Part shown: positions 40,144 through 51,249 of the stretch, piece by piece
Position numbering within the stretch: position 1 is the first letter of the stretch
How the letters are laid out: each line of letters begins with the position of its first letter
Assembly (NCBI RefSeq): GCF_011758655.1
Contig: NZ_JAAMPA010000001.1
Span: forward strand, 186,001-250,000
From: Modestobacter marinus
Lineage (GTDB): Bacteria; Actinomycetota; Actinomycetes; Mycobacteriales; Geodermatophilaceae
Direction of reading: 5' to 3'
Length of the DNA: 64,000 bases
Notes under the pieces: model-generated
What the model saw: the letters and a program-made list of their open reading frames with translations, nothing else
Database searches by the model: none
What the model was told of the DNA's origin: nothing
Program-made: the position numbers and the translations under genes

Positions 40144-40917
40144 TCAGCGGTCGACGAGGAGGGCGCGGACGGCAGGGAGGAGCGGGCGGTCGGCCGGGAT
40201 CCAGTCCAGGTCCTCCAGCTCCTCGGGCCCCAGCCAGCGCAGTTCGCTGTGCTCGTGGGCGACCAGCTCACCGGCGGTGATCCGGCCCCACCACAGGCGC
40301 AGGGTCGAGGCCCCCGGCACGCCGCCGGCGACCACGCCGTCCAGCGGAACCTCCCCCAGGAAGGCCCGGGGCGTGATCCCGACGCCGAGCTCCTCGCGGC
40401 ACTCCCGCACCAGTGCCGCCACCTCGGGCTCCCCCGGCTCGACCTTCCCGCCGGGGAACTCCCACAGCCCGGCCAGCGGCCCCGAACCCCGCTGCGCGAC
40501 CAGCACCCGCTGCCGGTCGTCGACCAGCGCGGCGCCGACCACCTGGGTGACCTCCTGCGCGCGCCGGGCGGCCGCCGCCGCGTACGCGTCCAGGTGCGCC
40601 TGCATCGCCCGCACGAGCCGGCGGCGGAGCGTGGGCCCACCCAGCCACCCCGGCAGCGCGGCCTCCACGTCGACCTGCTCCTCGACCAGCGTGCCGGCCG
40701 CGGTGGCCGTGAAGGAGCGGGTGTGCACCAGGGTCCGCCAGCCGTTGCCGGGTGGGGCCACGTGCACGTCGCGCCAGGGCCGCTCGGAGACGACCTCCTG
40801 CAACGGGTGCGGCCACGGCCGCCCCAGGGCACGGGCGACGTCGAAGGCGACGGTGAGGGGCGCCTCCACCAGGGTGGTGAACCGCAGCTGGAACACGGGG
40901 AGCAGGGTCGCAGACAC
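40144..40917 (-). CDS. Nudix hydrolase with N-terminal SRPBCC-like domain
   Basis: A 257-residue fusion. Residues about 125-255 are a Nudix domain of the MutT type with the full box GKVEPGEPEVAALVRECREE followed by LGV; it probably cleans oxidised nucleotides such as 8-oxo-dGTP. Residues about 8-115 (QLRFTTLVEAPLTVAFDVAR onward) look like an SRPBCC ligand-binding fold, which is unusual in a MutT protein. GTG 40917 is 15 bp from the divergent Rrf2 gene. Confidence 0.82.
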   Translation of the reverse strand: MSATLLPVFQLRFTTLVEAPLTVAFDVARALGRPWPHPLQEVVSERPWRDVHVAPPGNGWRTLVHTRSFTATAAGTLVEEQVDVEAALPGWLGGPTLRRRLVRAMQAHLDAYAAAAARRAQEVTQVVGAALVDDRQRVLVAQRGSGPLAGLWEFPGGKVEPGEPEVAALVRECREELGVGITPRAFLGEVPLDGVVAGGVPGASTLRLWWGRITAGELVAHEHSELRWLGPEELEDLDWIPADRPLLPAVRALLVDR

Positions 40918-40932
40918 GGCAGGATGGACCGC

Positions 40933-41406
40933 GTGCGCATCTCCGCCCGGGTCGACTACGCCGTCCGCGCCGCCGTCGAGCTCGCCGCGGTGGCACCCGA
41001 TTCACTGACCTCCGAGCGGATCGCCCAGGCGCAGGGCATCCCGGCCCGCTTCCTGCAGGCCATCCTCGGGGACCTGCAGCACGCCCGGCTGGTGACCAGC
41101 CAGCGGGGCCGGGAGGGCGGCTACCGGCTGGCGATGCCGCCGTCGGAGATCTCCGTCGCCCGGGTCATGCGGGTGGAGCAGGGCTTCCTCGCCGAGGTCC
41201 ACGGCCAGCGCCCCGAGGACGTCGAGTACCCCGGCGCCGCCGGGCCGCTGGCCTCGGTGTGGGTGGCGGCCCGGGAGTCCTACCGCCGCGTGCTGGAGAA
41301 CGTGACGCTGGCCGACGTCGTCGCCGGCACGATGCCGCCGCACGTGGCCGAGATGATCGAGCTGGAGAGTGCGTGGCGCTCCTTCGGGGTCCCCGCTGCG
41401 GACTGA
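40933..41406 (+). CDS. Rrf2 family regulator of sulfur assimilation
   Basis: A 157-residue winged-helix regulator starting VRISARVDYAVRAAVELAAV, the Rrf2 hallmark, with the recognition region LTSERIAQAQGIPARFLQAI and the wing QRGREGGYRLA. It contains no cysteine at all, so unlike IscR or NsrR it cannot hold an iron-sulfur cluster; CymR-type control of cysteine metabolism is a better model. It stands immediately upstream of the sulfite/APS reductase genes. ATG 40924 is an alternative start. Confidence 0.87.
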   Translation: MRISARVDYAVRAAVELAAVAPDSLTSERIAQAQGIPARFLQAILGDLQHARLVTSQRGREGGYRLAMPPSEISVARVMRVEQGFLAEVHGQRPEDVEYPGAAGPLASVWVAARESYRRVLENVTLADVVAGTMPPHVAEMIELESAWRSFGVPAAD

Positions 41407-41455
41407 CCGCGGACCGCCGCGGCCGCGGTCGGGAACACGAGTCGGCCCGGTGTGG

Positions 41456-41461
41456 CACGAT
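41456..41461 (+). promoter_or_regulatory. -10-like box of the cysteine leader peptide
   Basis: CACGAT ends 6 nt before GTG 41468. The same GGCACGAT-N6-start arrangement recurs before the pterin dehydratase gene at 44300. Confidence 0.45.
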
Positions 41462-41467
41462 CGAGGC

Positions 41468-41554
41468 GTGACGGACTGCGGCGCCCTCCTCGTGGAGCGC
41501 CTGCACGTCGACTTGGCGCGGGTCTCCAGCGCCGCCTGTCGCGCCGCGCGCTGA
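41468..41554 (+). CDS. Putative cysteine leader peptide of the sirA operon
   Basis: A 28-codon open frame starting at GTG: VTDCGALLVERLHVDLAR then VSSAACRAAR. The pattern LHVDLxRVSSxxC matches the actinobacterial putative leader peptides found before sulfur genes. It contains two cysteine codons (positions 4 and 24). In mycobacteria, leaderless cysteine-rich small ORFs act as cysteine-responsive attenuators of downstream operons; the same role is inferred here. It ends 93 bp before the sirA start. Confidence 0.75.
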   Translation: MTDCGALLVERLHVDLARVSSAACRAAR

Positions 41555-41647
41555 CCACGGCCCCGCTCCCCCGCAGCCTCCCTGCTGCACCCACACCCGG
41601 CCGCGTTGCGCACGCTCGGCGTGCCGGCGCAGAGGAGAACGACTGAC

Positions 41648-43327
41648 GTGTCGACCCCCACCCGCAGCAGCAACCGCCCCGTCCGCGGACAGGGCCAGTG
41701 GGCGCTGGGCTACCGCGAGCCGCTGAACCCCAACGAGCGGATGAAGAAGGACTCCGACGGGCTGGACGTGCGCCAGCGGATCCTGGACATCTACGCGCAC
41801 ACCGGCTTCGACGGCATCGACCCCGGCGACCTGCGTGGCCGGATGCGCTGGATGGGCCTCTACACCCAGCGGGCGCAGGGCATCCCCGGCGGCAAGACCG
41901 CCGTGCTGGAGGCCGAGGAGCTCGAGGACTCCTACTTCATGATGCGGGCCCGGATCGACGGCGGGCAGCTGACCAGCGAGGCACTCCGGGTCCTCGGTGG
42001 GATCAGCACCGAGTTCGGCCGGGACGTCGCCGACGTCACCGACCGGCAGAACGTCCAGTACCACTGGATCCGGATCGAGGACGTGCCGGAGATCTGGCGG
42101 CGGCTGGAGTCGGTCGGCCTGAGCACCATGGAGGCCTGCGGCGACGTGCCGCGCGTCATGCTCGGCTGCCCGCTCGCCGGGATCCTCGAGGACGAGGTGC
42201 TCGACGCCTCCGACGTGCTGGCCCAGACGGTGGCGAAGTACCTGGGCGACCCGCAGTTCAGCAACCTGCCGCGCAAGTGGAAGACGTCGATGTCCGGCTG
42301 CGTCGACCACTGCACCGAGCCCGAGATCGACGACGTCTCCTTCGTCGGCGTGGTGAACGCCGAGGGCGAGGCCGGCTACGACCTGTGGGTCGGCGGCGGC
42401 CTGTCGACCAACCCGATGTTCGCCAAGCGCATCGGCGTCTTCGTCCGCCCGGACCAGGTCAGCGACGTCTGGGCCGGCTGCACCGCGATCTTCCGCGACT
42501 ACGGCTACCGCCGGTCGCGCAACCACGCCCGGATCAAGTTCCTCATGGCCGACTGGGGCCCGGAGAAGTTCCGCCAGGTGCTGCAGGACGAGTACCTGCA
42601 CGCCGCGCTGCCCGACGGCCCGGCCCCGGCGCCGGCGCAGCACGACCAGCGCGACCACGTGGGGGTCAGCAAGCAGAAGGACGGGAACAACGCCCTCGGG
42701 TTCGCGCTGCGCACCGGCCGGATCAGCGGCAGCCTGCTCACCCGGATCGCCGACCTGGCCGAGGAGTACGGGACCCAGGGCGGGCGGATCCGGACGACGA
42801 CCCAGCAGAAGCTGGTCATCCTGGACGTCCCCGACGCCCGCGTCGAGGACCTGGTCGACGCGCTGGCCGAGCACGACCTGCTCGTGCGCCCCAGCGCCTT
42901 CCGCCGCGGCACGATGGCCTGCACCGGGCTGGAGTTCTGCAAGCTGGCGATCGTCGAGACCAAGCAGCACGCCCAGGAGCTCTACGCCGAGCTCGAGCGC
43001 CGGCTGCCGGACTTCGACGAGCCCATCGGGATCAACGTCAACGGCTGCCCGAACAGCTGCGCCCGGTTCCAGACCGCCGACATCGGCTTCAAGGGCATGA
43101 TCGTCCGCAACGCCGAGGGCGAGAGCGTCGAGGGCTTCCAGGTCCACCTGGGCGGCCACCTCGGCGTCGACGCCTCGTTCGGCCGCAAGTTCCGCGGTCA
43201 CAAGATCACCAAGGACGAGACGGCGGACTACTGCGAGCGGGTGCTCCGCGGCTACCTCGACCGCCGCGAGCCCGGCGAGCGCTTCGCCGCCTACGTGGCG
43301 CGGGCCGACGACGAGTGGCTCGTGTGA
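41648..43327 (+). CDS. sirA: Ferredoxin-dependent sulfite (nitrite) reductase
   Basis: A 559-residue siroheme/[4Fe-4S] enzyme that reduces sulfite to sulfide with six electrons from ferredoxin. The cluster and siroheme are held by four cysteines in ACTGLEFCK (about 424 and 430) and NGCPNSCAR (about 467 and 471). Two repeated ferrite-reductase halves are present. Neighbouring cysH makes sulfite reduction more likely than nitrite. GTG 41648 follows GAGGAG by about 10 nt. Length matches mycobacterial SirA/NirA (about 560). Confidence 0.93.
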   Translation: MSTPTRSSNRPVRGQGQWALGYREPLNPNERMKKDSDGLDVRQRILDIYAHTGFDGIDPGDLRGRMRWMGLYTQRAQGIPGGKTAVLEAEELEDSYFMMRARIDGGQLTSEALRVLGGISTEFGRDVADVTDRQNVQYHWIRIEDVPEIWRRLESVGLSTMEACGDVPRVMLGCPLAGILEDEVLDASDVLAQTVAKYLGDPQFSNLPRKWKTSMSGCVDHCTEPEIDDVSFVGVVNAEGEAGYDLWVGGGLSTNPMFAKRIGVFVRPDQVSDVWAGCTAIFRDYGYRRSRNHARIKFLMADWGPEKFRQVLQDEYLHAALPDGPAPAPAQHDQRDHVGVSKQKDGNNALGFALRTGRISGSLLTRIADLAEEYGTQGGRIRTTTQQKLVILDVPDARVEDLVDALAEHDLLVRPSAFRRGTMACTGLEFCKLAIVETKQHAQELYAELERRLPDFDEPIGINVNGCPNSCARFQTADIGFKGMIVRNAEGESVEGFQVHLGGHLGVDASFGRKFRGHKITKDETADYCERVLRGYLDRREPGERFAAYVARADDEWLV

Positions 43328-43557
43328 CCCCGAGCGATGCGTCCGAGCCGGACCCGGGCGGTGTGACCCCGCCGGACCCGGGCGGTGTGACAGAGCGCAC
43401 GTCCGGAAGGACGCGACAGCTGCCGCCGTTCCACTGTCCGTACTGCGGCGAAGAGGACCTGACCCCGCACGGTGACGAAGCGACCGGCTGGCACTGCGGT
43501 GCCTGCCTGCGGACCTTCACCCTGCGGCTGACCGGAACGGGGGTGCAGCACCCATGA
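43324..43557 (+). CDS. Small zinc-ribbon protein between sirA and cysH
   Basis: A 77-residue protein. The C-terminal half FHCPYCGEEDLTPHGDEATG then WHCGACLRTFTLRL is a CxxC...CxxC zinc ribbon. The N-terminal half is a repeat-derived Pro/Gly/Asp-rich tail. GTG 43324 overlaps the sirA stop (GTGA), and the gene overlaps cysH (ATGA), so all three are coupled. Two in-frame GTG codons (43363, 43387) inside the repeat are alternative starts. The function is unknown; a role with sulfite or APS reductase is likely from position. Confidence 0.8.
   Translation: MTPSDASEPDPGGVTPPDPGGVTERTSGRTRQLPPFHCPYCGEEDLTPHGDEATGWHCGACLRTFTLRLTGTGVQHP
43348..43391 (+). repeat. In-frame 24-bp repeat in the zinc-ribbon gene
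   Basis: CCGGACCCGGGCGGTGTGAC occurs at 43348-43367 and 43372-43391. Each copy encodes PDPGGV and carries an in-frame GTG, so it duplicates a possible start codon. Confidence 0.85.
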
Positions 43558-44267
43558 CGATCGCGATCACCACGCCGACGCCGGAGCTGGCGGCCGAGGC
43601 CGATGCGCGCTTCGAGGGGATCACCGACCCGGTCGAGCAGGCGCTGGCCGTGCTCACCTGGGCCGGGGACACCTTCGGGGAGTCCTTCGCCATCACCTCG
43701 AGCATGGCCGACGGGCTGCTCGCCCACCTGGCCAGCCGCGCCGTCCCCGGCGTCAACGTCGTCTTCCTGAACACCGGGTACCACTTCGCCGAGACGATCG
43801 GCACCCGCGACTGGATCACCAGCGTCCTGCCGATCACGCTGCACGACGTCCAGCCGCCGCTCACCGTCGCCGAGCAGGACCTGGAGCACGGGCCGCGGCT
43901 GTACGAGCGCGACCCGGACCTCTGCTGCTCGATGCGCAAGGTGCAGCCGCTGGCGCAGGCACTGGCCGGCTTCACCGCGTGGGGGTCGGGCGTCCGCCGG
44001 GACGAGTCGGCCACCCGGACGGGCACCAGGGTCGTCGACTGGGACGCCAAGCGCGGCATGGTGAAGGTCAACCCGCTCGCTGCCTGGACCCAGGACGACG
44101 TGGACGCCTACGTCGCCGAGCACCAGGTGCCGGTCAACCCGCTGTCGGAGATCGGCTACGCCTCGATCGGCTGCGAGCCCTGCACCCGTCCGGTCGCCCC
44201 GGGCGAGGACCCGCGCGCCGGCCGCTGGGCCGGCAAGAACAAGGTCGAGTGCGGGCTGCACACCTGA
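43554..44267 (+). CDS. cysH: Adenylyl-sulfate (APS) reductase, assimilatory
   Basis: A 237-residue reductase converting activated sulfate to sulfite. It has two cysteine pairs, LCCSMRKV (about 123-124) and GCEPC (about 206-209), which bind a [4Fe-4S] cluster and mark the APS-specific bacterial type rather than the PAPS type. ECGLH (232-236) carries the catalytic cysteine. VFLNTGYHFAET is the sulfonucleotide loop. It delivers sulfite to SirA. It overlaps the zinc-ribbon gene by 4 bp. Confidence 0.94.
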   Translation: MTIAITTPTPELAAEADARFEGITDPVEQALAVLTWAGDTFGESFAITSSMADGLLAHLASRAVPGVNVVFLNTGYHFAETIGTRDWITSVLPITLHDVQPPLTVAEQDLEHGPRLYERDPDLCCSMRKVQPLAQALAGFTAWGSGVRRDESATRTGTRVVDWDAKRGMVKVNPLAAWTQDDVDAYVAEHQVPVNPLSEIGYASIGCEPCTRPVAPGEDPRAGRWAGKNKVECGLHT

Positions 44268-44689: not shown

Positions 44690-45073
44690 GTGAGCACCAG
44701 CACCGTCGACACCGCCGTCGACAGCTGCGCACGCGCCCGGCTGGAGACCGACGCGACGGCGCGCCGGGCCCTGCTCGACCGGTGCTGGGCCGAGGACGGC
44801 GTCCACTGCGACCCGATCGGCCGGGCGGCCGGGCGGGACGGACTGCCCCACCACATCGGCGGCTTCCAGGCCGAGCAGTCCGGCGCCCGCCTCGAGGTGG
44901 TCAGCGGCGTCGACGAGCACGACGGCCACCTCCGCTCCGCCTGGCAGCTGCGGGCAGCGGACGGGTCGGTGGCGCTGGAGGGCACGGACTTCGGGGAAAT
45001 GGACGGCGACGGGATGGTGCGCCGGGTCATCGGCTTCTTCGGCCCCCTCCCCCCGGGTGGGTCGACGGGCTGA
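44690..45073 (+). CDS. SnoaL/NTF2-like protein
   Basis: A 127-residue protein with the cone-shaped NTF2 fold: LDRCWAEDGVHCDPIGRAAG, HIGGFQAEQSGARLEVVSGV and a closing strand with RRVIGFFGPL. Such proteins are small-molecule isomerases, hydrolases or binding proteins. It lies 32 bp upstream of an FAD oxidoreductase, so both may act on one secondary metabolite (inference). GTG 44690 follows TAGCTT by 7 nt. Confidence 0.82.
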   Translation: MSTSTVDTAVDSCARARLETDATARRALLDRCWAEDGVHCDPIGRAAGRDGLPHHIGGFQAEQSGARLEVVSGVDEHDGHLRSAWQLRAADGSVALEGTDFGEMDGDGMVRRVIGFFGPLPPGGSTG

Positions 45074-45105
45074 CACCGACGCCGCCTCTGGAGAGGGAGG
45101 ACGGC

Positions 45106-46530
45106 ATGGCTGCGATCGTGGTGCTCGGCGGTGGCGTGTGCGGGCTGGCCACCGGCATGGTGCTCGCCCGGGACGGGAACGACGTCCTGGTGCTGGAGCG
45201 GGACAGCGAGCCGGTGCCGACCTCCCCCACCGAGGCCTGGGACGGCTGGCGCCGGGCCGGGGTGGCCCAGTTCCACCAGGCGCACTACCTGCACCCCCGG
45301 TCGACCCGGGTGCTCGACGCGGAGCTGCCCGACGTCCGCGACGCGTTGCTCGCCGCCGGCGCGTTGCGCCACGACCCGCTGCGGAACGCCCCGCCCACCG
45401 TCGGGGTGCTGGACCGCCGGCCGGACGACGACCGGTTCGTCAGCGTCACCGCACGGCGCCCCACCCTCGAGCAGGTGGTCGCCCGGTCGGCCGAGGCGGA
45501 ACCGCGCCTGCGGGTCGAGCGGGGCGTGCAGGTGGAGGGCCTGGCGACCCGGCAGGTGGACGGCGCCGCGCACGTGACGGGCGTGCACACCACCACCGGC
45601 CGGCGGGTGGACGCCGACCTGGTCGTGGACGCGACCGGACGGAGGTCGCCGCTGCCGGCGTGGCTGCAGGCAGCCGGTGCCCGCCCGCCGCAGACGGAGG
45701 CGACGGACTCCGGGTTCACCTACTACACCCGGTTCTTCCGGTCGCGGTCCGGTGGTCTGCCCCCGATGCGGGCGAGCATGCAGACCCACGTCGGCACGTT
45801 CTCCCTGCTCACCCTGCCGGGCGACTGCGGCACCTGGTCGATCACGCTGGTCGTCGACTCGCACGACCGGCCGCTCAAGGAGCTGCGGCACGAGGACGCC
45901 TGGACCGCGGTCGTGGCCGCCTGTCCCCGGCACGCCCACTGGCTGGACGGTGAACCGATCACCGGGGTGCTGTCGATGTCCGGCGTCCTGGACCGCTGGA
46001 CCCGGGCGGTGGTCGACGGTGCGCCGGTGGTCACCGGGCTGGTCGCCGTGGGCGACGCCTGGTCCTGCACGAACCCCTCGCTGGGCCGCGGGATCAGCAT
46101 GGGGCTGATGCAGGTCGCGTGCCTGCGGGACGTCCTGCGGGACGGCGTGGACGACGGCCCGCAGGAGTTCGCCGAACGCTGGGACGACCGCGTGGAGAGC
46201 GCCCTGACCCCGTGGTACCGGGCGACGCTGGCGGTCGACCGGGCACGGCTGGCCGAGGTGCGCGCACTCCGGGAGGGGCAGACGCCCGCGCCACCAGAGG
46301 GACGGGCCGCCCTGGGGCCGGCGCTGGGCCGGGCCGCGGCGCACGACGCCGAGCTGTTCCGCGCGATGCTGGAGATCGCCGGCTGCCTGGCCCTGCCCCC
46401 GGAGGTGTTCAGCCGCCCGGGTCTGGCCGAGCGGGTGATGCGGGTCGCCGGGGAGCACCCGCCGGACGCTCCCCCCGGGCCGGACCGGGACCAGCTGCTG
46501 CGGCTGGTGGCCGGCGCAACCGCGAGCTGA
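45106..46530 (+). CDS. FAD-dependent oxidoreductase (halogenase/geranylgeranyl reductase-like)
   Basis: A 474-residue flavoprotein. IVVLGGGVCGLATGMVLARD binds FAD at the N-terminus, ADLVVDATGRRSPLPAWL is the DG-like second motif, and VGDAWSCTNPSLGRGISMGL is the GD motif of group A flavin monooxygenases and related halogenases. The tryptophan-halogenase WxWxIP motif is not seen. It is probably a monooxygenase or reductase. ATG 45106 follows GGGAGG by 5 nt. It is in an operon with the NTF2-like gene. Confidence 0.85.
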   Translation: MAAIVVLGGGVCGLATGMVLARDGNDVLVLERDSEPVPTSPTEAWDGWRRAGVAQFHQAHYLHPRSTRVLDAELPDVRDALLAAGALRHDPLRNAPPTVGVLDRRPDDDRFVSVTARRPTLEQVVARSAEAEPRLRVERGVQVEGLATRQVDGAAHVTGVHTTTGRRVDADLVVDATGRRSPLPAWLQAAGARPPQTEATDSGFTYYTRFFRSRSGGLPPMRASMQTHVGTFSLLTLPGDCGTWSITLVVDSHDRPLKELRHEDAWTAVVAACPRHAHWLDGEPITGVLSMSGVLDRWTRAVVDGAPVVTGLVAVGDAWSCTNPSLGRGISMGLMQVACLRDVLRDGVDDGPQEFAERWDDRVESALTPWYRATLAVDRARLAEVRALREGQTPAPPEGRAALGPALGRAAAHDAELFRAMLEIAGCLALPPEVFSRPGLAERVMRVAGEHPPDAPPGPDRDQLLRLVAGATAS

Positions 46531-46596: not shown

Positions 46597-48828
46597 TCAG
46601 CTGCCGACCCGACCGCCGTCCTCGCGGAAGACGACCGCCACGCTGGGCCGCGGGTAGGCCTTGTCGGCGAGCTTGTCCGGCCAGGTGCTCGACGGGGACT
46701 CACGGGTGGAGCCGGCCGTCTCCCCGGGGTGCTGCACCGAGACGAACACCGAGCGGGCGTCCGGGGTGATCAGCGGCCCGCTGCACTCGGCACCGAACGG
46801 CACCGTGAGGAACGCCTTGAGGTGCCCGCGCTCGGGCCCGGCGGTCGGCACGGCGAAGAGCCCGTCGTTGGTGCCGGCGAAGGTGCCCTCCTCCCGGTTG
46901 CGGGTGGAGAGCACGTTCCCGTCGGTGGAGATCCACAGGTTGCCGGCCGGGTCGAACTCCAGGTTGTCCGGGCAGGACAGGGCGCTGACCTGGCTCTTGT
47001 CGTAGCCGGCGAAGTAGGTCCCCGGCGTCTCGGGGTCACCGGCCACGATGAAGACCCGCCAGTAGAAGTCGTCCCCGGCGATCCCGTCGGTCTCCTGCCA
47101 CTCCAGGACGTGCCCGTTCCGGTTGCCGGACCGCTCCTCGTAGGTGCCGTCCTCGATGTCGAAGGCGAAGGACCGGGAGACCGGGTTGGGCTCGTCGGCG
47201 ACCTCGCGCTGCGAGTTGTTGGTCAGCGCGGCATAGACCCGGCCGTTGACCGGGTTGACCTGGATGTCCTCGGGCCGGTCCATCCGGGTGGGCAGCAGCG
47301 CCGGCTCGACGACCACCGGGGCGGCCGGGTCGGGGAAGTCGCCGTTGGCGTCCAGCTGCTTGCCCAGCCGGTCGGCGGCCAGCCGGGTGAAGGTCAACAC
47401 CCAGGGCACCGACTTGCCGGGGATCATCGACTGCCCGTCCTTGACCAGCGGGAGCCACTGGCCAGTGCCGTCGAACTCACCGTCGGCCGGCACCGTGGCC
47501 AGGCCGTCGATCTGCTCCGCCGGGGAGTCGCCGGTGAACCGGGCGACGTAGAGGTCCCCCTCGTCCAGCAACGTCATGTTGTGCGCGCGGGACGCGCGGT
47601 CGATGCCGGGGCGGTAACGGGCCTTGGAGACGAACTTGTAGATGTAGTCGAACCGCTCGTCGTCCCCGGAGTAGGCGACCACCCGGCCGTCCTCGGCGAT
47701 CTGGACGTTGGCCCCCTCGTGCTTGAAGCGCCCGAGCGCGGTGCGCTTCTTCGGGGCGGAGGTGCGGTCGTAGGGGTCCAGCTCGACGACCCAGCCGAAG
47801 CGGTTCACCTCGTTGGGCTCGAGGGCGAGGTCGAACCGCGGGTCGATCTCGTCCCACCGGCGGCCGGGCAGCTCCTCGGTGGAGATGCCGTACCGGGACA
47901 GGCGGGGCTCCCGCGGGTCCTCGGTGATCACCGTCGAGGTGCCGAAGTACTGGTTGAAGTTCTCCTCGCCGTGCAGGGTCGTCCCCCACGGCGTCGTCCC
48001 GCCGGCGCAGTTGTTCAGCGTCCCGAGGACGGACCGCCCCTCGGGGTCGGCCGAGGTCCGCACGTACTCCGACCCGGCCACCGGGCCGGTGAGCTCGAAG
48101 GTGGTGACCGGGGTGATCCGCCGGTTGCGGGTGCCCTTCCGGTCCGGCCGCCAGTTGCCCGTGCGGCCGTCCCGGCGCAGCTCGACCACCGAGATGCCGT
48201 GCGCCATCAGCGCGATCCGCTTCTGCTCCACGGTGGTCGGCGCCTCCTCGTCGGCCACGCCGGCGAACATCAGCTGCTCGTCGGTGTACTCGTGGTTGAC
48301 GATCATCAGCGCCCGGTTCCCGCTCCGGTCCAGGGGCAGCAGGCCGATGTAGTCGCAGTTGTAACCGAACTGCTTGGCCTGGGCCTCGGGGGTCTGGGCG
48401 TCGACGTCGAAGTCCGGCGCGTCCGGCTCCACCGGGTCGCCCCAGCGCATCACCACGCCGTAGGAGTAGCCGGTGGCCGTGACCAGCTCGTCGAGGAGGT
48501 TCTGCTCGACCGGCTCGAAGGTCAGCGGCTCGTCCAGGCCCGGCCGCCAGTCCTGGAAGGGCAGCTCCGCGGCCCGCGCGTTCGGGGTCTGCAGCTGACC
48601 CGCCGTGACGACGAGTGCACCGACGCCGGCCGCCTTGAGCGCGGTCCGCCGGCTGAACGCACCCTCGACGACCTCGCCGATGGTGGGGTTCGTGGTGGCG
48701 TTCGGCACCGGGTGGTCGCAGGCGTTGCCGCACTTGTAGTAGCACGTCACGTTGCTGCGGCTGCCGTGCCGGACGGTGTTCAGCAGCGGGAGGAGCAGGC
48801 GACGGCGGGCAGGGACGATGTCCGTCAT
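46597..48828 (-). CDS. PhoX family (DUF839) phosphatase, copy 1
   Basis: A 743-residue exported phosphatase. PhoX enzymes are calcium/iron-dependent alkaline phosphatases active on phosphate esters outside the cell. TCYYKCGNACDHPVPN (about 29-44) is the conserved N-terminal cysteine motif. FSRRTALKAAGVGALVV (about 59-75) is a Tat signal, set far from the N-terminus as in other actinobacterial PhoX. HGEENFNQYFG and ITPDARSVFVSVQHPGE are conserved active-site regions. It is a tandem paralogue of the gene at 49021-51249. A GTTCACC half-site lies upstream. Confidence 0.9.
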   Translation of the reverse strand: MTDIVPARRRLLLPLLNTVRHGSRSNVTCYYKCGNACDHPVPNATTNPTIGEVVEGAFSRRTALKAAGVGALVVTAGQLQTPNARAAELPFQDWRPGLDEPLTFEPVEQNLLDELVTATGYSYGVVMRWGDPVEPDAPDFDVDAQTPEAQAKQFGYNCDYIGLLPLDRSGNRALMIVNHEYTDEQLMFAGVADEEAPTTVEQKRIALMAHGISVVELRRDGRTGNWRPDRKGTRNRRITPVTTFELTGPVAGSEYVRTSADPEGRSVLGTLNNCAGGTTPWGTTLHGEENFNQYFGTSTVITEDPREPRLSRYGISTEELPGRRWDEIDPRFDLALEPNEVNRFGWVVELDPYDRTSAPKKRTALGRFKHEGANVQIAEDGRVVAYSGDDERFDYIYKFVSKARYRPGIDRASRAHNMTLLDEGDLYVARFTGDSPAEQIDGLATVPADGEFDGTGQWLPLVKDGQSMIPGKSVPWVLTFTRLAADRLGKQLDANGDFPDPAAPVVVEPALLPTRMDRPEDIQVNPVNGRVYAALTNNSQREVADEPNPVSRSFAFDIEDGTYEERSGNRNGHVLEWQETDGIAGDDFYWRVFIVAGDPETPGTYFAGYDKSQVSALSCPDNLEFDPAGNLWISTDGNVLSTRNREEGTFAGTNDGLFAVPTAGPERGHLKAFLTVPFGAECSGPLITPDARSVFVSVQHPGETAGSTRESPSSTWPDKLADKAYPRPSVAVVFREDGGRVGS

Positions 48829-48869
48829 GAGAGGGGTCCTCTGGTCGGGTGGGGCTGTTCCGACCCGTG

Positions 48870-48903
48870 ACGCTAGGAAGGCCTGACCACCCATCCGGTG
48901 AAC
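48870..48903 (-). promoter_or_regulatory. Promoter and possible PHO half-site of phoX copy 1
   Basis: On the minus strand GTTCACC (48903-48897), the PhoP-box unit of streptomycetes, lies 21 nt upstream of the -10 TAGCGT (48875-48870), near the expected -35. The second phoX gene has the same CCTAGCGTC (-10 at 51293-51288) but a weaker upstream site, GGTCACC. Confidence 0.4.
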
Positions 48904-49020: not shown

Positions 49021-51249
49021 TCAGCTGCCGATCCGACCGCCGTCGGCCCGGAAGACGACCGCAACGCTGGGCCGCGGGAACGGCCGCTCGGCCAGCCGGT
49101 CCGGCCAGGTGCTGGACGGCGCCTCCCGGGTCGACCCGGGCGTCTCCCCGGGGTGCTGGACGGAGACGAAGACCGAGCGGACGTCCGGGGTGATCAGCGG
49201 ACCGCTGCACTCCGCACCGATCGGCACCGTCAGGAACGCCTTGAGGTGACCACGCTCCGGCCCCGCCGTGGGCACGGCGAAGAGCCCGTCGTTGGTCCCG
49301 GCGTAGGTGCCGACCTCCCGGTTGCGGGTGGAGAGCACGGTCCCGTCGGTGGAGATCCACAGGTTGCCACCGCGGTCGAACTCCAGGTTGTCCGGACAGG
49401 AGAGGGCACTGACCTGCGTCTTGTCGTAGCCGGCGAAGTAGGTCCCCGGCGTCTCCGGGTCACCGGCCACGATGAACACCCGCCAGTAGAAGTCGTCGCC
49501 GGCGATCCCGTCGGTCTCCAGCCACTCCAGGACGTGCCCGTTCCGGTTCCCGTCCCGCAACTCGTAGGTGCCGTCCTCGAGGTCGAAGGCGAAGGACCGG
49601 GACACCGGGTTCGCCTCGTCGGCCACCTCCCGCTGCGAGTTGTTGGTCAGCGCCGCGTAGACCCGGCCGTTGACCGGGTTCACCTGGATGTCCTCGGGCC
49701 GGTCCATCCGGGTCGGCAGCTGGGACGGGTCGACGACCACGGGTGCGGCCGGGTCGGGGAAGTCGCCGTTGGCGTCCAGCTCCTTGCCCAGCCGGTCGGC
49801 GGCCAGCCGGGTGAAGGTGAGCACCCAGGGCACCGACTTGCCCGGGATCATCGACTGCCCGTCCTTGACCAGCGGGAGCCAGTGTCCGGTGCCGTCGAAC
49901 TCACCGTCGGCCGGCAGCGTCGCGAGCCCGTCGATCTGCTCGGGCGGCGAGTCGCCGGTGAAGCGCCCGACGTAGAGGTCGCCCTCCTCGAGCAGGGTCA
50001 TGTTGTGCGCCCGCGACGCGCGGTCGAAGCCGGGCCGGTAGGACTTCTTCGACACGAACTTGTAGATGTAGTCGAACCGCTCGTCGTCGCCGGAGTAGGC
50101 GACCACCCGCCCGTCCTCGGCGATCTGGACGTTGGCCCCCTCGTGCTTGAAGCGCCCGAGCGCCGTCCGCTTCTTCGGCGTGGAGGTGGGGTCGTACGGG
50201 TCGAGCTCGACGATGTACCCGAAGCGGTTGGCCTCGTTGGGCTCCTGGGTGACGTCGAAGCGGGGATCGACCTGGTCCCACCGGCGGCCGCTGGGCTCCT
50301 CCGTGGAGATGCCGTAGCGGGACCACCGCGGCTCCCTCGGGTCCTCCGCGAACGGCGTCGACGGCCCGAAGTACTGGTTGAAGTTCTCCTCCCCGTGCAG
50401 GGTGGTGCCCCAGGGCGTCGTGCCGCCGGCACAGTTGTTCAGCGTCCCGAGGACGTGGCGGCCTGCCGGGTCGGCGTTCGTCTGCACGTACTCCGAGCCG
50501 GCCGCCGGTCCGGTGAGCTCGAAGGTCGTCGCCGGCGTCAGCCGACGGTTGCGCTTTCCCCTCGGGTCCGGTCGCCAGTTGCCCGAGTCCCCCTCCCGGT
50601 GCAGCTCCACCACGGAGAGCCCGTGGGCCATCATCGCGATGCGCTTCTGCTGGTCGGTGGTGGGCGCCTCCTCGTCCGCCACGCCCGCGAACATGAGCTG
50701 CTCGTTGGTGTACTCGTGGTTGACCACGATCAGCGCCCGGTGCCCGCTCCGGTCCAGGGGCAGGACCCCGATGTAGTCGCAGTTGTAGCCGAACTGCTTC
50801 GCCTGGGCCTCCGGCGTCTGGTTGTCGACGTCGAACTCCGGTGCACCCGGTTCCACCGGATCGCCCCAGCGCAGGACGACGGCGTACTGGTAGCCGGTGG
50901 CGGTCACGAGTTCGTCCAGGAGGTTCTGCTCGACCGGCTCGAAGGTGAGGGGCGCCTCCGGGTGCGGCTGCCAGCCTCCGCCCGGCCCGCTGGCCAGCGC
51001 GGGTGTGGAGCGCACGGAGCCCACCGCCACGACCAGCGCCCCGGCGCCGGCGGCCTTGAACAGGGACCGCCGGCTGAAGGCGCTCTCGACGACCTCGCCG
51101 ATGGTCGGGTTGTCCGACTTGTTCGGCACGGGGACGTCACAGGCGTTGCCGCACTTGTAGTGGCACGTCGTGTGCGTCCGACTGCCATGGCGGAAGGAGT
51201 CCAGGAGAGGGAGAAGCAGACGACGGCGGGTGGGCGCGATGTCCGTCAT
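49021..51249 (-). CDS. PhoX family (DUF839) phosphatase, copy 2
   Basis: A 742-residue close paralogue of the downstream phoX gene; long blocks such as GRFKHEGANVQIAEDGRVVA are identical. TCHYKCGNACDVPVPN and FSRRSLFKAAGAGALVV mirror the cysteine motif and Tat signal. Differences cluster in the mature N-terminus (about 75-110) and in short surface patches, so the copies may differ in substrate or regulation. It has its own promoter-like TAGCGT and is followed by a hairpin. Confidence 0.9.
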   Translation of the reverse strand: MTDIAPTRRRLLLPLLDSFRHGSRTHTTCHYKCGNACDVPVPNKSDNPTIGEVVESAFSRRSLFKAAGAGALVVAVGSVRSTPALASGPGGGWQPHPEAPLTFEPVEQNLLDELVTATGYQYAVVLRWGDPVEPGAPEFDVDNQTPEAQAKQFGYNCDYIGVLPLDRSGHRALIVVNHEYTNEQLMFAGVADEEAPTTDQQKRIAMMAHGLSVVELHREGDSGNWRPDPRGKRNRRLTPATTFELTGPAAGSEYVQTNADPAGRHVLGTLNNCAGGTTPWGTTLHGEENFNQYFGPSTPFAEDPREPRWSRYGISTEEPSGRRWDQVDPRFDVTQEPNEANRFGYIVELDPYDPTSTPKKRTALGRFKHEGANVQIAEDGRVVAYSGDDERFDYIYKFVSKKSYRPGFDRASRAHNMTLLEEGDLYVGRFTGDSPPEQIDGLATLPADGEFDGTGHWLPLVKDGQSMIPGKSVPWVLTFTRLAADRLGKELDANGDFPDPAAPVVVDPSQLPTRMDRPEDIQVNPVNGRVYAALTNNSQREVADEANPVSRSFAFDLEDGTYELRDGNRNGHVLEWLETDGIAGDDFYWRVFIVAGDPETPGTYFAGYDKTQVSALSCPDNLEFDRGGNLWISTDGTVLSTRNREVGTYAGTNDGLFAVPTAGPERGHLKAFLTVPIGAECSGPLITPDVRSVFVSVQHPGETPGSTREAPSSTWPDRLAERPFPRPSVAVVFRADGGRIGS

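Follow-up and report, generated by a model that had tools for sequence, protein, structure and literature searches.

A leader reading frame between an Rrf2 gene and sirA

The window, by which we mean the whole 64,000-nucleotide stretch of Modestobacter marinus DNA analysed here, contains a short open reading frame between a gene for an Rrf2-family regulator and a gene of the sirA/nirA type (here sirA), with cysH farther downstream (table 1). The frame starts with GTG at 41468, stops with TGA at 41552-41554 and translates as VTDCGALLVERLHVDLARVSSAACRAAR, with Cys residues at codons 4 and 24; 61 nt separate it from the end of the Rrf2 gene at 41406 and 93 nt from the sirA GTG. The original prediction of a 28-codon frame at this place is confirmed as an observation. 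The Rrf2 gene scores 59.1 bits with the CymR model, under its cutoff of 195, and the sirA product falls under the cutoffs of the specific NCBIfam models. On the 3' side of cysH, an FAD-binding oxidoreductase-like gene (44782-46530) is over the Pfam FAD_binding_3 cutoff and far under all NCBIfam cutoffs shown, and an adjacent pair of PhoX alkaline phosphatase genes (46597-48894 and 49021-51249) lies on the minus strand.

Table 1. Features of the leader locus, in window coordinates.
Feature	Position	Strand	Basis or remark
Rrf2-family regulator gene, directly 5' of leader	40924..41406	+	TIGR00738, 97.1 bits (cutoff 73.3)
Extended -10 element TGTGGCACGAT	41451..41461	+	ends 6 nt before the leader start codon; transcript predicted to begin at this GTG or beside it
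Leader peptide ORF, predicted leaderless type	41468..41554	+	28 codons and TGA; NF042934; kept at 50/50 sirA loci
Conserved peptide core RLHVDLAR (R-5 to R2)	41498..41521	+	amino acids constrained, synonymous codons largely free
Candidate short hairpin, UGU in loop	5' arm CAGCGC 41527..41532; 3' arm 41548-41553	+	unproven
Conserved Cys codon UGU (family C8, residue 24 here)	41537..41539	+	UGU in 50/50 sirA leaders
C-rich, G-poor tract after leader stop, rut-like	41555..41604	+	C 62%, G 20%
Shine-Dalgarno (SD) AGAGGAG of sirA	41631..41637	+	sequence
sirA/nirA-type sulfite (nitrite) reductase gene, 559 aa	41648..43327	+	NIR_SIR and NIR_SIR_ferr over cutoff
cysH, (phospho)adenylyl-sulfate reductase	43554..44267	+	NF002537, 245 bits (cutoff 154)

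The leader belongs to an annotated family

The frame had been said to carry the pattern of actinobacterial putative leader peptides, and this is borne out by a curated NCBI model that already exists for such frames. Against NCBIfam NF042934 ("cis_reg_atten, putative leader peptide"), with which it shares the core and the terminal Cys, the window leader scores 33.2 bits (cutoff 27, E 2.7e-8), and because it passes the cutoff we regard it as an instance of the annotated family; a six-frame search of the 5.1 Mb genome with the same model gives it 31.7 bits (E 1.1e-6). Against NF042936, the model for the Cys-rich leader Ms4527A, it scores 23.2 bits, under the cutoff of 45. NF042934 is a protein profile and, unlike the codon finding described below, is silent on codon and mechanism. 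Three further matches at E<0.001 were found in the same genome, in front of genes for a TauE/SafE-type transporter (L002), an ABC ATPase with a NIL domain (L003) and a rhodanese (L004); two of the genome's four leaders are over the 27-bit cutoff in the genome search, and UGU is the conserved Cys codon in each of the four.

At least 56 of the 57 genomes of the same GTDB family contain a match at E<=0.01. A search with the N-terminal 200 residues of this SirA located a sirA locus in 50 of these 57 genomes, with the leader upstream in 50/50 and an Rrf2 homologue preceding the leader at 47 of these 50 loci. At least 113 of 120 genomes of the order and at least 178 of 296 of the class have a match to NF042934, and a phylum-wide draw gave one in 11 of 149 genomes, 10 of the 11 within this class; the E limits differ between the phylum, class and order searches. 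The loci retrieved from family, class and order are the better-scoring among the matches listed. The core recurs in poly-Cys leaders of relatives from the same order (TKRRAVDLCRVAGCCCCCCSC in L070 is an example), and by their sequences these leaders and the window leader look like one motif family that differs in the number of Cys residues. Paired leaders on opposite strands, their cores about 80-200 nt apart, were seen at L011, L020, L182, L191, L267, L272, L274, L276 and L280; such pairs stand in front of divergent genes, and the arrangement is frequent in the family.

Residues are numbered from the L of VDL (position 0), and the last NF042934 column is Cys 8 (C8). Leaders were collected with a core pattern of Arg/Lys at -5, Asp/Gly at -1, Leu/Met at 0, Cys at 8 and a stop at most 25 codons after C8; for the later set the stop could lie up to 30 codons after C8, and two residue classes were also widened. 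Conservation of the residues fixed by this pattern is not independent evidence, while the choice of codon for them is. Among 109 NF042934 loci and 120 loci around listed matches, 13 had no counted leader: the sequences at L117, L120, L122, L125 and L271 were already counted, L079 has no such leader, and variants outside the core pattern have UGU at L076, L081, L082, L086, L116 and L259 and UGC at L287. When identical cores were removed more strictly, 173 of the 182 leaders in the first set remained, and the 85 of the later set included one duplicate.

Of 75 non-redundant leaders all but one, which had no gene call, could be assigned a first downstream gene, and Pfam places most of these 74 among the sulfur genes: sulfite reductase (14), rhodanese/3-MST (11), luciferase-like monooxygenase (7, of which 4 match alkanesulfonate monooxygenase models), TauE (6), PLP Cys-synthase type (4), cysteine-dioxygenase type (4), APS kinase (2), sulfatase (2), TauD (1) and PAPS reductase (1). 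The other first genes include FAD/NAD-binding (5), ABC ATPase (3), DUF4395 (3) and GNAT (3) genes, and unassigned ones.

Promoter and predicted transcript start

The -10-like box that had been placed 6 nt before the leader GTG is exactly there (CACGAT, 41456-41461, part of the extended form TGTGGCACGAT), and it is kept, spacing included, at all 50 sirA loci. The pattern [TC][AG]TGnnAnnnT ends 6-7 nt before the start codon (GTG in 36, ATG in 14) in 50/50 sirA leaders, and at the same spacing before only 1 of 786 other GTG or ATG codons in the same stretches; 46 of the 50 have the strict form TGTGnnAnnnT. A consensus sigma-70 scan with a -35 box gave no site in 41000-42000, and we assign the -10 element because it is conserved across loci, not from that scan. 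The window leader and the 50 sirA leaders are thus predicted to be leaderless, with transcription starting at the start codon. Of the 75 leaders in the mixed family set, 50 are preceded by the loose -10 (control 12.6) and 22 by the strict TANNNT (control 1.4); several of the others look SD-led.

Two other motifs were noticed in these promoter regions. One resembling GATCGACTTGGTAGACA / CATCGGnCTGGTAGACATT was seen by eye upstream of leaders L021, L039, L123, L131, L139, L146, L148, L154 and L155; it is common to different operons and is possibly a regulator site. The other, resembling CTGAGTCACACC, lies upstream of the leader start at 7 of the 50 sirA loci (L050, L055, L059, L061, L063, L064 and L100), is absent from the window, and is a possible site for the adjacent Rrf2 regulator.

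The conserved Cys codon is nearly always UGU

After merging and deduplication C8 is UGU in 249 of 257 distinct leaders and UGC in the other eight, counts that are not of independent events since the leaders are related by descent. The first set had TGT 176 and TGC 6 (n=182), leaders below 80% nucleotide identity had TGT in 71/75, and 80 loci retrieved after the idea had arisen included 78 with the core, whose 85 leaders have TGT at C8 in 83 cases. As background, the Cys codons in 173 downstream genes of the same loci are TGC 472 times and TGT 25 times (n=497); the TGC:TGT ratio is 112:7 over 34 called genes of the window and 10:0 in sirA. The codon deviation at C8 (G=391) is the largest in the leader, the next being Ser5, which is AGC in 44/49 (G=84). 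C8 is the sole Cys in the stretch shown of 127 of the 257 leaders, and the base that follows it is C or T in 247 of 257 (C in the window leader, 41540).

Cys codons elsewhere in the leaders are mostly TGC, as at C1 (58/60 in the first set and 28/29 in the later set) and at C6, two codons before C8 (26/27 in the later set). Over all non-C8 Cys codons of the first set TGC occurs 149 times and TGT 50 times, TGT being common at positions 6 and 9-11, mostly in poly-Cys leaders. This use of UGU beyond C8, together with the eight UGC codons at C8 and that of L287, counts against reading C8 as a codon sensor. The codons for Arg-5 (CGC, CGG, CGT, CGA and AGG) occur, by contrast, in roughly genomic proportions, so the core is kept as peptide and C8 as codon. 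Arg2, which the core pattern does not demand, is present in 236 of 257 leaders. A weaker second synonymous bias was seen at Asp-1, where GAT is used by 72 of 256 leaders (14 of 75 non-redundant ones) and at about 4% in downstream genes.

With clusters of downstream genes named from representative members, UGU stands at C8 before sulfite reductase in 73/75 leaders, 3-MST in 36/36, DUF4395 in 26/27, cysteine-dioxygenase type in 15/15, TauE in 10/11, APS kinase in 10/10, luciferase-like in 9/9, CysK/M in 9/9 and MetN-like ABC in 5/6. Both the variation at neighbouring synonymous sites and this spread over unrelated genes argue against mere inheritance of the codon. The UGU rule fails most before an FAD/NAD-binding protein (UGU in 3 of 6; L015, L021, L148, L149, L151 and L154). 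In this cluster the FAD/NAD-binding gene forms a divergent pair with a GNAT gene, and its leader is short-gapped and looks SD-led. We found no statement of the UGU rule in the literature searched; Canestrari et al. 2020, who reportedly treat mycobacterial poly-Cys leaders with detail on ribosome-binding site sequestration, may describe it.

The 48 Rfam tRNA matches in the genome, read with ARAGORN, include one tRNA-Cys, with anticodon GCA; two tRNA-Cys-like pattern matches proved to be places without a tRNA. As one tRNA-Cys serves both Cys codons, isoacceptor (selective) charging cannot explain the choice of UGU, and the sole tRNA must read UGU by G-U wobble. Wobble reading of UGU would be the slower one, and a following pyrimidine would weaken decoding. 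Two other reasons for UGU were considered and set aside. Its retention for RNA pairing is unsupported, as over 67 leaders the third base is paired with a mean probability of 0.61, like its neighbours, and a T-to-C swap changes the fold by -0.22 kcal/mol on average. A frameshift at UGU would enter open frames with median lengths of 64 and 36 codons, much like the 61 and 44 counted from 8 codons upstream.

A C-rich tract follows the leader stop

The stretch directly after the leader stop looks, by its composition, like a Rho-loading site. Its C-G value of 0.42 is reached by 0.02% of window 50-mers sampled on both strands, and 25 control 5' regions of the window, which rest on a rough gene call, have a mean of 0.009, a maximum of 0.18 and 4 values above 0.1. 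In the family, C-G exceeds 0.1 in 39 of 52 leaders with a gap of at least 60 nt, as compared with 14 of 74 stretches upstream of promoters. The tract is strongest in the cysteine-dioxygenase cluster (12/12 above 0.1, mean 0.30) and weak behind the DUF4395 cluster (5/21 above 0.1), which, like the four control values above 0.1, counts against a role in Rho loading. A search of 41000-42000 for an intrinsic terminator (a hairpin with a T run) found none. Rfam gave no match at gathering in the window, and the two matches up to E 5 in 40800-42000 are sub-gathering and inside the Rrf2 gene.

Proposed mechanism

We think it probable that the leader is a cis-acting sensor of cysteine limitation, in which a stall at UGU decides, most likely through Rho, whether sirA-cysH is expressed. 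Transcription would start at the leader GTG, and a 70S ribosome would translate the leader at once, laying down RLHVDLAR before it meets the single conserved Cys codon. This UGU, followed by a pyrimidine, would be read by wobble by the sole tRNA-Cys, and may have been kept over UGC as the slower-read Cys codon, such that a small fall in Cys-tRNA stalls the ribosome there. When cysteine is plentiful the ribosome would leave at the stop, and the naked C-rich RNA would lead to the end of transcription, most likely by Rho; when it is scarce the stalled ribosome would prevent termination, and sirA-cysH would be expressed. The leading edge of a ribosome lies about 13-15 nt ahead. A ribosome with UGU in its A site would thus end near the stop codon and leave the C-rich tract uncovered. 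This counts against the scheme, as such a stall would not account for keeping Rho off the RNA; the link from stall to Rho is inferred, as are the slow decoding, the stalling and the sign of the response.

Most of the genes behind the leader serve to produce or to scavenge sulfur for cysteine, and this agrees with induction when cysteine is scarce. The cysteine-dioxygenase-type, TauE and 3-MST genes could be catabolic, and if those of the dioxygenase type degrade cysteine their induction at low cysteine would be senseless, which counts against the sensor reading; genes of these three kinds could also serve, as we infer, in the scavenging of organic thiols and sulfonates. That all leaders respond in the same sense seems likely, because the leaders of these three kinds almost always carry UGU and the C-rich tract is at its strongest in the dioxygenase cluster.

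Alternative explanations

The output might instead be translational: the ribosome-binding site of sirA would be hidden by RNA pairing until a ribosome stalling at the Cys codon exposed it. We consider this rather unlikely at the present locus. In its favor, translation attenuation is cited for M. smegmatis cysteine genes in the excerpts of PMC13236596 and PMC9031893, and the output reported in the former as translational counts against a transcriptional (Rho) output. The minimum-energy fold also pairs the leader with the region up to the sirA start, but its energy is no better than that of shuffled sequences (z -0.28, with 74 of 200 shuffles as good), energy models being a weak test. The folding check that accompanied the original prediction, which looked to alternative structures downstream of the leader, likewise gives no support to any (41555-41670, z -0.98), and covariation in the helices tested is no more than in shuffles (73 of 500 reach the score; RNAalifold covariation term -0.68, with changes on both sides in 4 of 25 pairs). 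These helices were examined in an alignment of 38 sirA leaders, 12 of the 50 with short or divergent gaps being left out. The helix CAGCGC/GCGCUG is complementary in 38/38 but invariant, and so uninformative, and a swap test over the family lends it no support. Masking 29 nt as a ribosome at UGU raises SD accessibility by 0.016 on average (48 of the 50 sirA leaders, two having no usable start), which is within the range for masks elsewhere (-0.008 to 0.049). Sequestration of the ribosome-binding site, as reported for the mycobacterial poly-Cys leaders, is therefore not supported here by the folding tests, which are weak ones.

The other alternatives concern what is read at C8. A nascent-chain arrest comparable to that of TnaC seems quite unlikely. 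In it the R-x3-D motif in the tunnel, and not codon speed, would stop the ribosome when UGU occupies the A site, and the ligand might be free cysteine or some other sulfur compound. The core is conserved as amino acids, including the Arg2 that our pattern leaves free, and the leader family resembles TnaC in having a C-rich or rut tract after the stop. If UGU occupies the A site, R-5 is 12 and D-1 is 8 residues away from the P-site residue, as Trp12 and Asp16 are from Pro24 of TnaC in the excerpts of PMC8429421. This match may be coincidence, R-5 and D-1 are (nearly) required by the search pattern, such that their conservation is not independent, and arrest by itself leaves UGU over UGC unexplained because both bring the same amino acid. 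It is distinctly improbable that UGUY belongs to a structure or binding site in RNA or DNA that falls on the Cys codon by chance. The pyrimidine after C8, the AGC of Ser5 and the use of GAT at Asp-1 above background suggest that more than the codon is constrained. On the other hand, at most other core positions the choice among synonymous codons resembles that of the genes, a family-wide swap test for helices between codons 2-7 and the downstream RNA found none beyond swapped pairs (P 0.89), the third base is not unusually paired and its change to C even lowers the energy slightly, UGU is kept before unrelated genes, and AGC at Ser5 can be inertia (AGC, ACC and GGC being one step apart). Finally, strong conservation by itself would also fit a functional small protein, yet the position before sulfur genes, the variable ends and the synonymous-site constraint at one Cys codon make it extremely improbable that the frame has no regulatory role, whether as a leaderless frame translated by accident or as a small protein with a function of its own.

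Within the codon-sensor reading that we prefer, we tentatively suggest a sensor of two layers, as a possibility that we hold with some doubt: the nascent-peptide motif would position or prime the ribosome, and the synonymous UGU, which the sole tRNA-Cys reads by wobble and which a pyrimidine follows, would set the sensitivity of what is then a one-codon amino-acid sensor. Codon choice within one tRNA would in that case be regulatory information of a kind that isoacceptor-charging theory does not cover, and it would be so for the sulfur regulon in a large part of the Actinomycetes.

Comparison with known systems

The poly-cysteine leaderless small frames of mycobacteria are reported to be cysteine-responsive in the excerpts of PMC13236596 and PMC9031893 (Canestrari et al. 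2020 is cited for them there and in PMC9094748). They share with the window leader a leaderless start, predicted in our case, and a position at sulfur operons, and the poly-Cys leaders L070-L072, from genomes that look mycobacterial, share its R-x-(H/A)-V-D-L-x-R core and UGU at C8. The likeness drawn in the original prediction to cysteine-rich leaderless frames does not hold as such, since the window leader has no run of Cys codons but a single conserved one, nearly always UGU, after a motif kept at the amino-acid level. Both of the Cys codons it named are present; codon 24 is the conserved one, whereas codon 4 is not conserved, and in 37 of the 50 sirA leaders the equivalent of codon 24 is the only Cys codon. 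The prediction of a leaderless-type leader before sulfur genes is supported in silico, also by the core that it has in common with the poly-Cys leaders. The earlier reading was thus right about the object and broadly right in its idea, with its interpretation partly supported.

Seliverstov et al. 2005 (PMC1262725), in the portion available, describe Cys leader frames before cys operons with no terminator, suggest Rho and call the prediction weak; their leaders have runs of Cys codons (Mycobacterium, P. acnes, B. longum cbs), whereas the window leader has one codon and a tract whose excess of C over G has been measured. TnaC, the leader of E. coli tryptophanase, is likewise short, with key residues 12 and 8 before the P site and a rut site after the stop, but it stalls at its stop codon with free Trp, and as ligand, sequence and sense differ we claim no homology (PMC8429421, in part). 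The excerpts of PMC8632094 describe another cysteine-codon leader, uORFC-8-2 before cysS in Rhodobacterales, which differs in having two tandem Cys codons, dominant UGC and an intrinsic terminator. Synonymous choice sets the sensitivity to starvation in selective-charging theory (PMC1183508) and in the serine sensor of sinR (PMC3862929), as we propose here; as far as the excerpts of both go, the theory needs different isoacceptors and sinR contrasts UCN with AGC/AGU codons, whereas the window genome has a single tRNA-Cys.

Implications

The near-invariant UGU is the part of these findings most worth following. By it, the annotation "putative leader peptide" becomes a sharp prediction, in which the change of one silent base should change the response to sulfur. 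If the proposal is true, selection can turn wobble reading by a single tRNA into a sensor, and the leader would be a defined element for cysteine-responsive expression. The sequences assembled here point to a widespread actinobacterial family of leaders that probably sense cysteine, and if they do so, sulfite reduction, the use of sulfonates, and persulfide and thiol metabolism would in many actinobacteria belong to one leader-controlled regulon.
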